Source of the DNA: a bacterium
GTDB lineage: Bacteria > Chloroflexota > Anaerolineae > Caldilineales > Caldilineaceae
Direction: 5' to 3'
Assembly (NCBI GenBank): GCA_016124945.1
Contig: WGMT01000069.1
Span: 62,001-126,000, forward strand
DNA length: 64,000 nt
The notes below the pieces were generated by a model. The model saw only the letters and a list, made by a program, of their open reading frames with translations. It was not told where the DNA came from and made no database searches. Below, in pieces: positions 6,691 to 64,000 of this stretch (its first letter is position 1; each line of letters starts with the position of its first letter). The translations under genes were made by a program, and so were the position numbers.

Positions 6691-8169
6691 TTAGAACTGC
6701 CGACTCCACTCCCGCGGCCACCGCTCCACCACCACCTTCGTCTGCGTGTAGAATTCGACGCCGTGACGGGATTGGGCGTGAAGATCGCCGAAGAAACTAG
6801 CGTTCCAGCCGCTGAAGGGGAAGAAGGCCATGGGCGCAGCCACGCCGATGTTGATGCCGATGTTGCCCGCATCCGCGAAGTGACGGAACTGGCGCGCTGT
6901 GGCCCCGTTGCTGGTGAAGATACAGGCCATGTTGCCGAAGGCGCGGTTGTTCACCAGTTCGATGGCGCTGTCGATGTTGTCGGCGTGCATCAGGCTGAGG
7001 ACAGGACCAAAGATCTCCGTCTGCGCGATGTCGCTGCCCGGGTTGACGTCGTCGAGGATGGTGGGGAAGACCCAATTGCCGTTCTCATAGCCGTCCACCT
7101 GTTTTTGGCGTCCATCGACCAGCACCGTCGCGCCTTCCTGCGCGCCCTTTTCAATCAGACCATTGATGCGCGACTGGCTTTCCTGCGTGATCACCGGCCC
7201 CATCTGCACACCTTCGTTAAGGCCATAGCCCACCTTGCGGCTGGTGGCTACGTCTGCCATCATCTCGGTAAAGTTGTTGCGGGCGCTGCCCACCGTAATC
7301 GCCACCGACGCCGCCAGACAGCGTTGACCGGCGCAGCCGAAGGCCGAATCGGCCATGATGCGCGTGGTGGTCTCCATGTCGGCGTCGGGCATAATGACAA
7401 CAGGGTTCTTGGCCCCACCCTGGCACTGGGCGCGCTTGCCGTTGGCCGTGGCGCGGCTGTAGACGTACTTGGCCACCGGTGTGGACCCCACAAAGCTAAT
7501 CGCCTTGACGCCGGGGTGATCGAGCAGGGCGTCGACGGTCTCCTTGCCGCCATTGACCAACTGCACCACGCCCGCGGGGAAGCCCGCCAGTTCGAGCAGT
7601 TCAAACAACTTCTGGCTGCTCATGGAGACTTTTTCACTGGGCTTGAGGATGAAGCTGTTGCCGGTGGCGAGGGCGTAGGGCAGGAACCAGAGCGGGATCA
7701 TGCCGGGGAAATTGAAGGGCGTAATCGCCGCCACCACCCCCAACGGCTGGCGGAACATGTGCTCGTCGATGCCGCGGGCGATGTCCTCGTTGTTGTAGCC
7801 CTGCATGAGGATGGGGATACCGCACGCCACTTCCACGTTTTCGATGCCGCGGCGCATTTCGCCCACGCTCTCGGCGTAGGTCTTGCCGCACTCATTGGTG
7901 ATGATACGCGCGATCTCGTCGAGGTGTTCTTCCAGCAGCATCTTGAACTTGAACATGTGCTGAATGCGATCCACGGCAGGCGTCTCGCTCCATTCCTTGA
8001 AAGCGATCTGCCCGGCCTGCACCGCGGCGTCCACTTCGGCGCCGGGGGAAAGCGGCACCGTGGTCAGCGCCTCTGCTGTGGCGGGGTTGACAATCGTCAT
8101 CGCCTCGCTCGCCGAAGAGCGCGTCCACTGGCCGTTGATGAAGTTAAGAAGTTGGTTGGGTGTGGTCAT
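6691..8169 (-). CDS. mmsA: Methylmalonate-semialdehyde dehydrogenase (acylating) family
   Basis: [35 protein letters not shown]...; ...[14 protein letters not shown]...; start at 8169 preceded by GGAG. Confidence 0.9.
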
Positions 8170-55874: not shown

Positions 55875-57717
<1,843 letters not shown>

Positions 57718-59598: not shown

Positions 59599-60303
59599 AT
59601 GACACTCCAGCATAAACAGATTACCGTTGTGGCCATTGATGACCACGAGCTCATTCTTCAAGGCATTCGCTATCTTCTCGAAAAGAACGATGACATCAAA
59701 TTGGTGGCGGAAGGTTATGCCGGCAGTGATATCGTACCCCTTGTGGCGCGTCACCAACCGGAAGTACTCCTTCTTGATATCGGGATACCGGAAGAACGAA
59801 GCTATGGGGAACAGGCTGCCAGTCGGCATTCTGTCTTCGCGACCCTACATCTGTTGCAGACAGAATATCCTTATACGAGAACCATTATTGTCTCTCAATA
59901 TGGTACGCCACTGTTGGCAAAGGCGGCGCTATCGGCCGGTGTGAAAGGCTATCTCATCAAGGACGATGCCTTAACGAGTTATCTCGCAAACGCAATTCGC
60001 ACCGTGCATCGCGGGGGAATTTTCTTTTCTCGGTCACTGCAATCGCAGCTCATCCAAGCCCGGATCGGTGAACCCAACCCATTACAACCACGCCAGATTG
60101 AGATTTTGACAGCCTTTGTTCTGAAACCAAATGAGGATCGGGGCGTTATTGCCAAAACTCTGGGAATCTCTGTGAGCACATTGAATTATCATCTTGGGCG
60201 AATCTATGACGTCCTTAAGGTGAATGGTCTTGCCGCAGCCCTAGTGAAGGCAATGGAAATGGATCTGCTACCGGTACCTCCTCCTGACTTACCCTTGATG
60301 TAG
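59599..60303 (+). CDS. NarL/LuxR-type (ComA-like) response regulator
   Basis: Receiver: VVAIDDHELILQGIRYLLE, LLLDIGIPEE, GYLIKDD; C-terminal HTH LQPRQIEILTAF...IAKTLGISVSTLNYHLGRIYDVLKV. Confidence 0.85.
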   Translation: MTLQHKQITVVAIDDHELILQGIRYLLEKNDDIKLVAEGYAGSDIVPLVARHQPEVLLLDIGIPEERSYGEQAASRHSVFATLHLLQTEYPYTRTIIVSQYGTPLLAKAALSAGVKGYLIKDDALTSYLANAIRTVHRGGIFFSRSLQSQLIQARIGEPNPLQPRQIEILTAFVLKPNEDRGVIAKTLGISVSTLNYHLGRIYDVLKVNGLAAALVKAMEMDLLPVPPPDLPLM

Positions 60304-60350
60304 ACAAACTCATTCAGTGCTCAACCCAAATCAACGCCGGCACGCGAACG

Positions 60351-62765
60351 ATGAAAATGCACCACAATTTTTCAAACAAGAGTATCGCAAGGCATTTCTA
60401 CCTCGTCCGGATACCGGTACTTACCGGAGCTCTGTTTGTTATCCTCTTCTATACGTATGCCATCGTTGTTCTGGTGCCGAACTATCCCTTCGGCGCACGG
60501 TGGACACCTGACGGCCAAATGGAAGTGCTGCGACCGTATCAGGATACCCTGGCGGAAGCACTTCTTCGGCCAGGTGACATCATCTACCAGATTGATGGAA
60601 GGCCTGCCTTGCGCTCGCCCTGGCGTTTTCTATTTGAGTGGGATAACGATACACACATCTACGACATTCAGCGTGGTGATGAGCAACTACAGCTGGCGTT
60701 GCCTAACCAACCGATGGATTGGACGGAATACCGCTCACGAACAACCGCCGGTGCAATTGCTGTAGGCATATGGGGAATTGCAGCCGTCGTCTTGGCTGTT
60801 GCCCCGACGCACAATCGACAGGCATGGCGGCTGGGCCTGGTCAGTCTGGCGACGGCGGTAACACTGGCTGCGTCAGAAGGCGCACTTTACAACATTCCAA
60901 TTGCCTGGTTGATATCAGAACCGTTCTTACCACTTGTCTCTGTTGCTTTCGCGGCTCTTGCCCTGATGCCTTGTCCGCACAACCGACTGCGCTGGGCGAA
61001 AAGGTTGCTCCGAGTTGGTTACGTGGGAACGGGATTCCTGGCGCTGGCCCTCCTTTTTGAGATCCTTATACTGCGCCCACAAGGTCTTCGTTTGCCAGAT
61101 CTCGGCGGCTTGCCAATAGGAGACGTCGGCCTGCTTGTCACCGGTCTCGGATTGTTGCTCAATCCTGTACTGTTGATCTTCTCACTTTTTACGCTGGAAC
61201 CAGGACAAGCGCGCCGCAGCGTACAGACCCTCCTGCTATTCACCCTGTTGGCCATACTACCTCTCGTCCTCTTTACGATCTTGCCACGAGTTCTAACAGG
61301 GACACCCGTGCTAGCCTGGGAGCTTGGGATCAGCATGCTTCTACTGGTGCCGATTGGTTATGGCTTCGTCGTCTACCGTCGCCAATTCCTTGGGTTGGAT
61401 CTCATTGTATCTAGAACACTCGTAGCGCTACTGCTGATTCTACTGTTTACGACGTTATACGGCGCTACTTTCCTCAGTATAGCCCTGCAACAAACAGTGC
61501 AGACACTGCAACCCATGTCCGGCATCGTGGCAACCTGTATCGCAATGGGGGGTGTTGTGACGGCGGGGCAATTTATACAACGGCAAGTGCATTCTCTTGT
61601 CTTCGGACCCTCTGTGGCATACGCAGACAAGATTGCCGACTATACTGCATCTCTGGCGAGTGAACCTGAAGTGACATTCTTGGAGCGCACGTTTCGAGAA
61701 GTGATGGCATTGTTGGAGATTCAACGCGCCTTTCTGTGGATCGTCGGTGAGGATGAACCGATTCCGGTTTCCCGACAGGGGATGCACACCATTCCACAGA
61801 TAGAGATGAGTGACTTTGAAACGGTCATACAGCGTTCTACGCATCCACAGCAATCTGTGTTTGCAGAATATGAGTGGCTCGAGCTGGTGATTCCGCTACG
61901 ACATGAGGATCGCACCATCGGCGTGGTTTTCATTGGCAATCGGGTGGTTAGTGACTATTTCAATCAGCTTGAACTGGGTTTTCTCAAACAAATCAGCGCC
62001 TCAATTGCAGTGACGGTGATGAACATCGCGCTGTTTGAGGCATCACGCATGATGTCACGACTACTTCTCTATGTCAGGGAAGAGGAACGAGTACACTTCG
62101 CAACGCTACTGCACAATGGCCCGTTACAACGCCTTACACTGGTGTCCGGTGCATTGCACAGACTACAAGAGCATGCAGTCGGACCAGAGGTAAAAGCAAG
62201 AATTGAACAGATTCGCAACGATGTTCTGCTGATATCTTCACAACTCCGCACAGCGTGCACCGATTTACATTCCCCTGTAATTGATCTTGGCGTCGAATTG
62301 ACCGTACAGGAAGTTATCGAAAAAGCAGCGCAGCACCTTAAAGTACCTATCTCACTTGAGGTGACCGTGCCGCCGGATCTCTCAATCTCCAGCGCCGGTG
62401 TCACCGCGATTTATCACATCCTGACTGAGGCACTAAACAACATTCACCGGCATGCAGGCGCATCTGCTGTCACAGTTTCACTGGCACAGCCAGACGCAGA
62501 ACATCTACATCTCCTTATCCGGGACAACGGCCGTGGCTTTGTGATTACGCATACATCGTTATCGGAGTTGCTGCGTTCTCGTCGTTTTGGCCTGGTGGGC
62601 ATGCATGAATGGGCGCGTCTGGCCCACGGCGTGCTGGCAATACAATCTCGTCCCGGCGCTGGTACCACAATTGACCTGACTATCCCACTTTTTGCATCCC
62701 CAATTGCAGGATCACCACCATCATTCTCACACATTGCAGAAAGGAAAACCCTATGTCCAACGTAG
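60351..62765 (+). CDS. ComP-like sensor histidine kinase (multi-TM, PDZ-like loop, HisKA_3 + HATPase)
   Basis: N-terminal TM, PDZ-like ALLRPGDIIYQIDGRPA, ~8 TM, EERVHFATLLHNGPLQRL, DNGRGFVI...GLVGMHEWARLAHGVLAIQSRPGAGT. Confidence 0.82.
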   Translation: MKMHHNFSNKSIARHFYLVRIPVLTGALFVILFYTYAIVVLVPNYPFGARWTPDGQMEVLRPYQDTLAEALLRPGDIIYQIDGRPALRSPWRFLFEWDNDTHIYDIQRGDEQLQLALPNQPMDWTEYRSRTTAGAIAVGIWGIAAVVLAVAPTHNRQAWRLGLVSLATAVTLAASEGALYNIPIAWLISEPFLPLVSVAFAALALMPCPHNRLRWAKRLLRVGYVGTGFLALALLFEILILRPQGLRLPDLGGLPIGDVGLLVTGLGLLLNPVLLIFSLFTLEPGQARRSVQTLLLFTLLAILPLVLFTILPRVLTGTPVLAWELGISMLLLVPIGYGFVVYRRQFLGLDLIVSRTLVALLLILLFTTLYGATFLSIALQQTVQTLQPMSGIVATCIAMGGVVTAGQFIQRQVHSLVFGPSVAYADKIADYTASLASEPEVTFLERTFREVMALLEIQRAFLWIVGEDEPIPVSRQGMHTIPQIEMSDFETVIQRSTHPQQSVFAEYEWLELVIPLRHEDRTIGVVFIGNRVVSDYFNQLELGFLKQISASIAVTVMNIALFEASRMMSRLLLYVREEERVHFATLLHNGPLQRLTLVSGALHRLQEHAVGPEVKARIEQIRNDVLLISSQLRTACTDLHSPVIDLGVELTVQEVIEKAAQHLKVPISLEVTVPPDLSISSAGVTAIYHILTEALNNIHRHAGASAVTVSLAQPDAEHLHLLIRDNGRGFVITHTSLSELLRSRRFGLVGMHEWARLAHGVLAIQSRPGAGTTIDLTIPLFASPIAGSPPSFSHIAERKTLCPT

Positions 62766-62974
62766 CCACTCAGTTGATCAATGCACCGGCAGAAGCACTC
62801 ACCATCGCCAGTCAATTAAGTCTGAATCTTGATGAGCGTGCCACCTACCTGAGCCCCATTGATATCACGGTGGAAGGCTGGGTGGCTGTCACCACTGATT
62901 GTCTCGACCACTTGCGTGCCGCATTTCCTGGGTTTATGTGCTCCGATTCCGGTGGATGTGAACGACTCCGCTGA
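62753..62974 (+). CDS. Candidate ComX-like pheromone precursor peptide (73 aa)
   Basis: AAAGGA RBS; overlaps kinase stop by 13 bp; lies between ComP-like and ComQ-like genes; MSNVATQ...VEGWVAVTTDCLDHLRAAFPGFMCSDSGGCERLR. Confidence 0.55.
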   Translation: MSNVATQLINAPAEALTIASQLSLNLDERATYLSPIDITVEGWVAVTTDCLDHLRAAFPGFMCSDSGGCERLR

Positions 62975-62989
62975 TGGATGCCCCACTTA

Positions 62990-63021
62990 GGAGCAGGTCA
63001 TCGGTCTAGATGATCTGCTCC
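62990..63021 (+). promoter_or_regulatory. Strong hairpin between peptide and ComQ-like genes
   Basis: GGAGCAGGTCATC GGTCTA GATGATCTGCTCC, 13-bp stem with one G-U, no T-tract. Confidence 0.7.
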
Positions 63022-63060
63022 AAAATCGTTGACAGGCCGGCACAACATGGAGCAGTGAAC

Positions 63061-64000
63061 ATGATCTCTGATGGAATACAACCAAGCATAGACAGTCTCT
63101 TCGTTCGGGTTTTTGAGTGGGTAGAAAATGAGTTGACGAAACTCACCGGCTGGTCCTGGCTCGGAGAACTTGTGGTATGGCGCCGTCACCGGCTTCATGA
63201 TACGTATGGCGTATACGGCATTACCCTGCCTATTTTGGCAACAACGCTGGTGGGTGGTTCAGACCGCAAGGCCATACCCTTAGCCGCAGCCTGGGTACTC
63301 TATGACCTGGCATCCGACATCTTCGATGATCTACAAGACAAAGATGAGAAACCACACCCCTGGTGCAACTGGCCACCGGATCGCGCCATGTTGGCCGGCC
63401 TCGGCTTGCTCTTTGCCGGCCAGCACTGCCTTGCTCAATTGGATGCACCAGCGGAAGTACTCAAAGAAATCCAACAGAGGTGGTCACAGACAGGGCTATT
63501 GGCCGCTCTGAATCAACACTCCACTGAACAAACAACCGCGGAACGCTATTTTGAAGAGATTACGGCAAAGTCCGGCATTATTTTTTCGTCCGTCATGTGG
63601 AGTGGAGGCCGTCTGGCCTCGTCTGAGACAGACAAGCTCTCCGCCTTAGAAGAATATGGATTGGCATTGGGTATCCTCATCCAGCTTTGCGACGATGGAC
63701 GGGATTGGGCGGTACCCAGTGAAAACAAGAAGTCGAATATCCAGTCAACGCTGTATCAACTGATAGCAATGGGGCACCCAAAGATGCCACGTATCCAGGA
63801 CATTCAGATTCGCGGCGCGCTGTATCCTGGCGCCGAAAAGGAGATGTTGAACGTCGTTTTCCCGTGGGTGGCGTACACTTTTGTGATTGAGATGATGAAA
63901 GTCTATGAAGAAAAGGCGATTTCTGCGCTGTCCCCCTTTACAAACGGACCGGTTGACCATCTAATCGACTATGCCAGGTATTTCCGCAGTACCGTGTCGG
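63061..64000 (+). CDS. ComQ-like polyprenyl synthetase/isoprenyl transferase, C-terminus off the right edge
   Basis: Open frame from ATG (GGAG upstream) to window end; DIFDDLQDKD and LCDDGRDW (two DDxxD motifs); absent from ORF track because no stop is in the window. Confidence 0.75.
   Translation, partial: MISDGIQPSIDSLFVRVFEWVENELTKLTGWSWLGELVVWRRHRLHDTYGVYGITLPILATTLVGGSDRKAIPLAAAWVLYDLASDIFDDLQDKDEKPHPWCNWPPDRAMLAGLGLLFAGQHCLAQLDAPAEVLKEIQQRWSQTGLLAALNQHSTEQTTAERYFEEITAKSGIIFSSVMWSGGRLASSETDKLSALEEYGLALGILIQLCDDGRDWAVPSENKKSNIQSTLYQLIAMGHPKMPRIQDIQIRGALYPGAEKEMLNVVFPWVAYTFVIEMMKVYEEKAISALSPFTNGPVDHLIDYARYFRSTVS

Follow-up and report, generated by a model that had tools for sequence, protein, structure and literature searches.

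Does a bacterium of the phylum Chloroflexota carry a prenyl-peptide signalling operon like the ComQXPA system of Bacillus? The question arises from four genes at the end of a 64,000-nucleotide stretch of DNA (the window, C71:62001-126000 of an 8.74-Mb draft genome), which an initial annotation had read as the same toolkit in reversed order. A 2014 census of 9,590 genomes placed ComQXPA in Firmicutes only (PMC4008528), and a 2017 review described the geranylation or farnesylation of tryptophan as special to several Bacillus species, although suspected to be wider spread (PMC5331326). ComP-ComA-like pairs in Chloroflexota have been noted by their KEGG names (PMC8895600); our search of openly accessible journal papers found no report of ComQ or ComX in this phylum. 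We argue below that the locus is best described as one that would work like ComQXP yet fails the definition of ComX, and that it is not a textbook member; that it is a prenyl-peptide signalling operon functioning like ComQXPA we consider, on balance, probable.

The locus and its genes

Four consecutive genes on the forward strand encode a response regulator, a histidine kinase with multiple transmembrane (TM) helices, a 73-residue open reading frame (ORF) and a protein with the fold of trans-isoprenyl diphosphate synthases (trans-IPPS), an order that corresponds to A-P-X-Q and that we confirmed from the sequence. The regulator in the ComA position (59611..60303, 230 residues, 50% identical to its ortholog in a genome of the same genus) had been annotated as NarL-type; its receiver domain is matched by Pfam (Response_reg, PF00072, 3.9e-11), and its NarL/FixJ-type GerE domain (PF00196) falls just under the cut-off, with 20.6 bits against 23.5. 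The kinase (60351..62765, 804 residues) is a multi-TM histidine kinase for which Pfam reports HATPase_c (PF02518) and GAF domains; the HisKA_3 domain (PF07730) that had been assigned to it was not reported.

The candidate precursor peptide X (62753..62974; MSNVATQLINAPAEALTIAS...GFMCSDSGGCERLR) has a single Trp at residue 43. Its start codon lies in a 13-bp overlap with the kinase stop, and a Shine-Dalgarno-like sequence, AAAGGAAAA, precedes it inside the kinase gene (62740..62748). The ComQ-like transferase follows (63061..64000 in the window, 327 residues), with a first aspartate-rich motif (FARM) DDLQD and a second (SARM) DDGRD. It may start at 63010 or 63061, of which the latter is likelier because GGAG (63049..63052) stands upstream. 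As annotated, the gene runs past the window edge, but it is complete in the assembly and stops at 64044, 44 bp beyond. Outside the window, the next genes encode a DrrA-like ABC ATPase and two ABC-2 permeases (L006 7041-9601), and the ATPase start and the transferase stop overlap.

The transferase is of the ComQ type rather than a housekeeping synthase

To place the transferase, we built a tree of 78 proteins comprising 14 housekeeping synthases, 13 Firmicute ComQ proteins drawn from loci with a Pfam ComX gene, nine Paenibacillus loci and three Chloroflexota families, here called Qw (the window's family), Q2 and NH. The housekeeping synthases split from the ComQ-like set with a support of 100/98, and the window transferase did not group with the farnesyl or geranylgeranyl diphosphate synthases, a grouping that the initial annotation had named as a refutation of its reading. 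Its place is inside the Qw clade (100/98), where it forms a six-member subclade with L078, L040, L101, L080 and L099 (96/87).

Motif counts agree with the tree. The GKRxRP and RR[GH] motifs that bind isopentenyl diphosphate (IPP) are present in 14/14 housekeeping enzymes (one with the variant GKLVRP) and in 0/63 proteins of the Firmicute ComQ, Paenibacillus and three Chloroflexota sets. One protein first counted in the NH family, L115, carries these motifs, groups with the housekeeping enzymes in the tree and has no kinase beside it. A 'PW' a few residues after the FARM is common to Firmicute ComQ and Qw. The window SARM is intact, whereas Firmicute ComQ has a pseudo-SARM with ND at this place. 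Together, the tree, the loss of the IPP-binding motifs and the shared PW signature support the assignment of the window protein to the ComQ type, as predicted from its sequence.

An ordinary polyprenyl diphosphate synthase that neighbours a two-component system by chance would share the fold and the match to PF00348 (5.6e-11 for the window protein). Against it stand the lost GKRxRP and RR[GH] motifs, the position in the tree and the recurrent neighbourhood described below, and two other synthases of the same genome score far higher against PF00348. We strongly disfavour this explanation and regard it as extremely improbable; ordinary synthase identity is rejected on the tree and the missing motifs.

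The predicted structure (mean pLDDT, a per-residue model confidence score, 87.6) and a fold search against the PDB gave an isoprenoid-synthase fold with the FARM, a fold which belongs to the whole superfamily and does not discriminate between enzyme types. The top PDB chain by both profile and single-sequence searches was 9v4g, which the fold search names Ord1 (PDB 9v4g to 9v4j), a Trp farnesyltransferase described as acting on free Trp (PMC13290415). Like Ord1, the window transferase keeps the glutamine just before the SARM (LIQLCDDGRD, Q208), a residue linked to Trp recognition, which housekeeping enzymes have too and which is therefore not discriminating; the two proteins share about 25% identity. 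The match to Ord1, the retained glutamine and the lack of a usable Trp in X of the window clade (see below) would all fit an enzyme that acts on a small molecule such as free Trp or another indole, with the prenylated small molecule as the signal and X as an accessory or chaperone. However, in sister clades the enzyme is accompanied by precursors that clearly bear Trp, and the window clade, too, has retained an X immediately upstream of the enzyme; we think a small-molecule substrate quite unlikely.

The kinase has a ComP-type sensor domain

The kinase consists of a first TM helix, an extracytoplasmic PDZ-like domain (about residues 44-118), about eight more TM helices, the GAF domain and HATPase_c. 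In the structural model (pLDDT 81.7), TM1 is likewise followed by a beta-rich domain (about 44-118) and then a helical bundle. A search of the PDB with the sensor fold gave no significant match, with weak PDZ and generic 7-TM matches only. Profile-profile comparison of the N-terminal 400 residues of Qw kinases with Firmicute ComP aligned 347 columns with a probability of 99.1 (E 6e-19); the window kinase alone reached 94.7, and the reversed alignment 0.1. Among 16 polytopic controls, 11 scored below 1 and five scored high, and these five turned out to be kinase genes beside other transferase loci (L044, L045, L046, L093 and L195). By this sequence comparison with its controls, the sensor domain is identified as homologous to that of Firmicute ComP.

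The small ORF is a gene

X is coding, and more than a chance ORF. Its codon score is higher than that of 99.93% of the segments read in a false frame and, at the 9th percentile of true genes, is inside their range. Aligned with a 71-residue ORF in the same slot of the same-genus genome, X is ungapped over 24 columns after the Met (shuffle p = 0.0004). It is also the only small ORF adjoining the transferase that has both an ATG start and a Shine-Dalgarno sequence. These results bear out the initial annotation, which had treated the ORF as a real gene.

Unlike X of the sister clades, the window X gave no hit for a leader of the nitrile hydratase leader peptide (NHLP) type. It also lacks a match to the ComX domain (PF05952), an insensitive model of low power, under whose cut-off even the B. 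subtilis control genome stays. Across Anaerolineae, a search with PF05952 found nothing above the cut-off and only weak matches in unrelated long frames, and the model therefore cannot find the Chloroflexota X family.

The locus recurs in Anaerolineae

A neighbour from the same genus is the metagenome-assembled genome 'Caldilineaceae bacterium ACE_CHL9', which places the organism in the class Anaerolineae; its 25,791-base contig (L039 and L078 are the same contig) has the identical gene order with the 71-residue ORF in the X slot. Beyond the genus, the regulator, X, transferase and kinase of the Qw family recur in Anaerolineae; a search for such neighbourhoods in other Chloroflexota was a check proposed in the initial annotation. 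The small ORF is kept beside the transferase in position, but its sequence is weakly conserved; its loss from this place in relatives, which would have counted as a refutation in that annotation, was not observed. An ABC exporter composed of an ATPase and two ABC-2 permeases accompanies the transferase in the window, L040, L080, L099 and L100; L078, with its ABC ATPase, was counted as well.

X tails with Trp occur in L041, L042, L100 (two X), L102, L103 and L118, whereas the tails of the window subclade have none. A blind rule for Trp-tailed precursors scored 15/16 loci in Q2, 6/12 in Qw and 7/14 in NH, compared with 20% of control genes and 2/14 housekeeping synthases. In the window's own family, the rate thus exceeds chance only weakly, and the window itself scored negative.

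Individual Qw members deviate. L100 has two paralogous X genes ahead of one transferase (about 7050-7540, reverse strand), with the tails QGLWDRK and LLCWPRCDGA, and in the L100 and L102 transferases the glutamine and the first Asp of the SARM are missing. L101 (5985-6926) is a lone Qw transferase on a long branch; a small ORF that ends in GICGRCG accompanies it, a phage-type integrase lies nearby, and no kinase was found beside it.

The acceptor residue

The acceptor residue is the main difficulty of the prenyl-peptide reading, and several observations count against that reading. Trp is absent from the final 30 residues of the window X and from the entire X of L078, L080, L099 and L101; in this subclade, the tail is without Trp in 5/5 and the whole peptide in 4/5. 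All characterised peptide prenyltransferases resembling trans-isoprenyl diphosphate synthases (trans-IDS) act on Trp (PMC13290415). Neither Pfam nor NCBIfam has a model that matches the window X, and the full-length similarity of this peptide to the X of relatives is insignificant (z about 1.3), the test anchored at the N-terminus alone being significant. Finally, the same-genus transferase (L078 4790-8450) lacks its first 54 residues in frame, with part of them in a neighbouring frame, which points to an indel in the assembly or to a gene that is broken; the ABC-2 genes that follow are not open either. Another Trp-tailed small ORF was sought inside four exporter loci, and none adjoins the transferase.

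This leaves three possibilities for the window clade: an enzyme that acts on a different residue, an enzyme with a different target altogether, or a locus in decay. Trp43 of the window X, the 31st residue from the C-terminus, is a possible acceptor by analogy with ComX natto, since the modified residue of that 73-residue peptide, Trp54, is the 20th from its end, and the peptide is trimmed on both sides (PMC5331326). Decay would mean that an ancestral Trp-bearing peptide degenerated in the window clade, a view consistent with the missing tail Trp in 5/5 of the subclade and with the truncated or frameshifted same-genus transferase. The window genes are open, though, X has coding-like codon use and good ribosome sites, both catalytic motifs (FARM and SARM) are intact and distant members have retained the exporter; we regard decay as very unlikely.

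Sister families carry Trp-bearing precursors

The Q2 family was present in 15/298 sampled Anaerolineae genomes (at least 35% identity). Its loci consist of X, Q and then usually a ComP-like kinase. The Q2 precursors have a conserved leader (MTIQEFNxLLKS...LLKVLRQL...KPEDVR), a variable tail and one Trp column that is invariant in the 13 aligned sequences; a Trp-tailed precursor was identified in 15/16 loci by the blind rule and in the 16th by eye. With a profile of Q2 X, a blind six-frame search of 301 genomes of the phylum hit a locus in another class, where a Q2 transferase (58% identity) and a kinase come after X, and gave another new match at a contig end.

The genome of the window has a Q2 locus of its own, on contig C26 (L007 2366-9010), with X2 (MNTQTQTLTIQEFQQMMKSADSKLPEFLQKIVEIAKPEDVREMTNKAIGTDNWGWRW, tail GTDNWGWRW), a Q2 transferase and an 874-residue ComP-like kinase. 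This locus is the canonical Chloroflexota equivalent and deserves the name ComXQP. It shares with the window locus the phylum, a related transferase and a ComP-like sensor, and differs from it, as do its kin, in the X-Q-P order, a HisKA-type kinase, a Trp-bearing X and the lack of an exporter; the Q2 and Qw transferases form separate, distantly related clades. It lies convergent with comEC (PF03772) and downstream of a mutS-like gene (MutS was confirmed by Pfam in L138), and comEC also stands beside the X-Q-P locus in L138 and L147. Because X-Q-P loci adjoin comEC, the gene of a DNA-uptake channel, in three related genomes, the arrangement hints at a link to competence outside Bacillus.

NH precursors have NHLP-type leaders, two of them above the NCBIfam cut-off for Os1348-type NHLP ribosomally synthesised and post-translationally modified peptides (RiPPs) and several more below. 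Three, all encoded on the reverse strand, have NHLP-like leaders and tandem cores: PWGWQF is repeated four times in L110 (1520-1945) and three times in L108 (upstream of the transferase, within 6750-7720), and GPFPGWQG occurs in many copies in L106 (upstream of 5420), where an assembly gap (Ns) interrupts the array.

Comparison with ComQXPA and PalQ

The initial annotation's expectation of a prenyl-peptide-type system in another phylum is borne out, as loci of the ComX/ComQ/ComP type recur in Chloroflexota; such systems now extend to a second phylum, where they form at least three families and provide some thirty new enzyme-precursor pairs. Its statement that the window holds the same toolkit in reversed order is not supported in that form. 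The window locus and Bacillus ComQXPA share four roles on one strand, transferases without IPP-binding motifs and with PW after the FARM, a homologous kinase sensor (TM1, a loop of about 110 residues and a multi-TM layout) and, with ComX natto, a precursor of 73 residues. In contrast to Q-X-P-A, the window order is A-P-X-Q followed by an ABC exporter, which is not found in comQXPA; the SARM is intact, the last 5-10 residues of X lack the ComX-defining Trp, PF05952 does not match, and X of the closest relatives is mostly Trp-less.

The PalQ/PalX/PalP cluster of Paenibacillus alvei, in which an NHLP precursor and a kinase accompany PalQ (PMC10853753), resembles the window in grouping kinase, precursor and trans-IDS-like transferase and in keeping the SARM aspartates, and it resembles the NH family in its NHLP-type precursor. 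Unlike the window X, PalX carries an NHLP leader and a C-terminal Trp, and the cluster is described as three genes, without the exporter or the regulator of the window.

A model for the window operon

The sequence analysis establishes the gene order, that X is coding, the family of the transferase, the homology of the sensor and the recurrence of the locus; that X is prenylated, at which residue, and how it is processed, exported, sensed and put to regulatory use, we infer. In the favoured prenyl-peptide signalling model, the 73-residue X would be a RiPP-type precursor that is prenylated by the ComQ-like transferase, with an allylic diphosphate as the isoprenyl donor. The modified C-terminal part would be cut free and exported, probably via the co-transcribed DrrA-like ABC-2 transporter. 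The ComP-like kinase would sense the product through its PDZ-plus-multi-TM sensor and phosphorylate the neighbouring NarL-type regulator, whose probable target is its own operon. The exit route of ComX from the cell was stated to be unknown (PMC4008528), and an operon-borne exporter makes the exit of a ComX-like peptide testable.

The exporter would also suit a prenylated RiPP natural product of the bacteriocin kind, with the two-component system sensing for production or self-protection, the ABC-2 proteins exporting or conferring immunity in the manner of LanFEG, and signalling being secondary. An ABC ATPase with two ABC-2 permeases adjoins the transferase in the window and its relatives, a lantibiotic-protection ATPase model is among the NCBIfam matches (below the cut-off), and the tandem-core precursors of the sister family suggest product yield. 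On the other hand, the kinase sensor is specifically ComP-like, the operon has no protease or other RiPP-tailoring gene, and the sister X-Q-P loci have no such transporter. We consider a natural product somewhat unlikely.

In a further reading, the ComQ-like enzyme of the window subclade might prenylate a non-Trp residue of a Trp-less precursor whose product leaves via the dedicated ABC-2 exporter. This version is speculative and we think it unlikely; if true, the chemistry of the prenyl peptide would be new, and its route of export could be identified. The Trp-less precursors of the window clade make the Trp dependence of trans-IDS-like enzymes testable.

Genomic setting

The genome estimate includes 9% contamination. 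A foreign contig is unlikely, because the nearest relatives of both transferase loci are found in the same genus or family. Beyond a gap after the ABC-2 permeases lies a P450 gene, which is outside the conserved gene set. Within the window but outside the prenyl-peptide locus, an ATP synthase beta-like ORF of an N-ATPase operon is encoded at 56251-57645 on the reverse strand.

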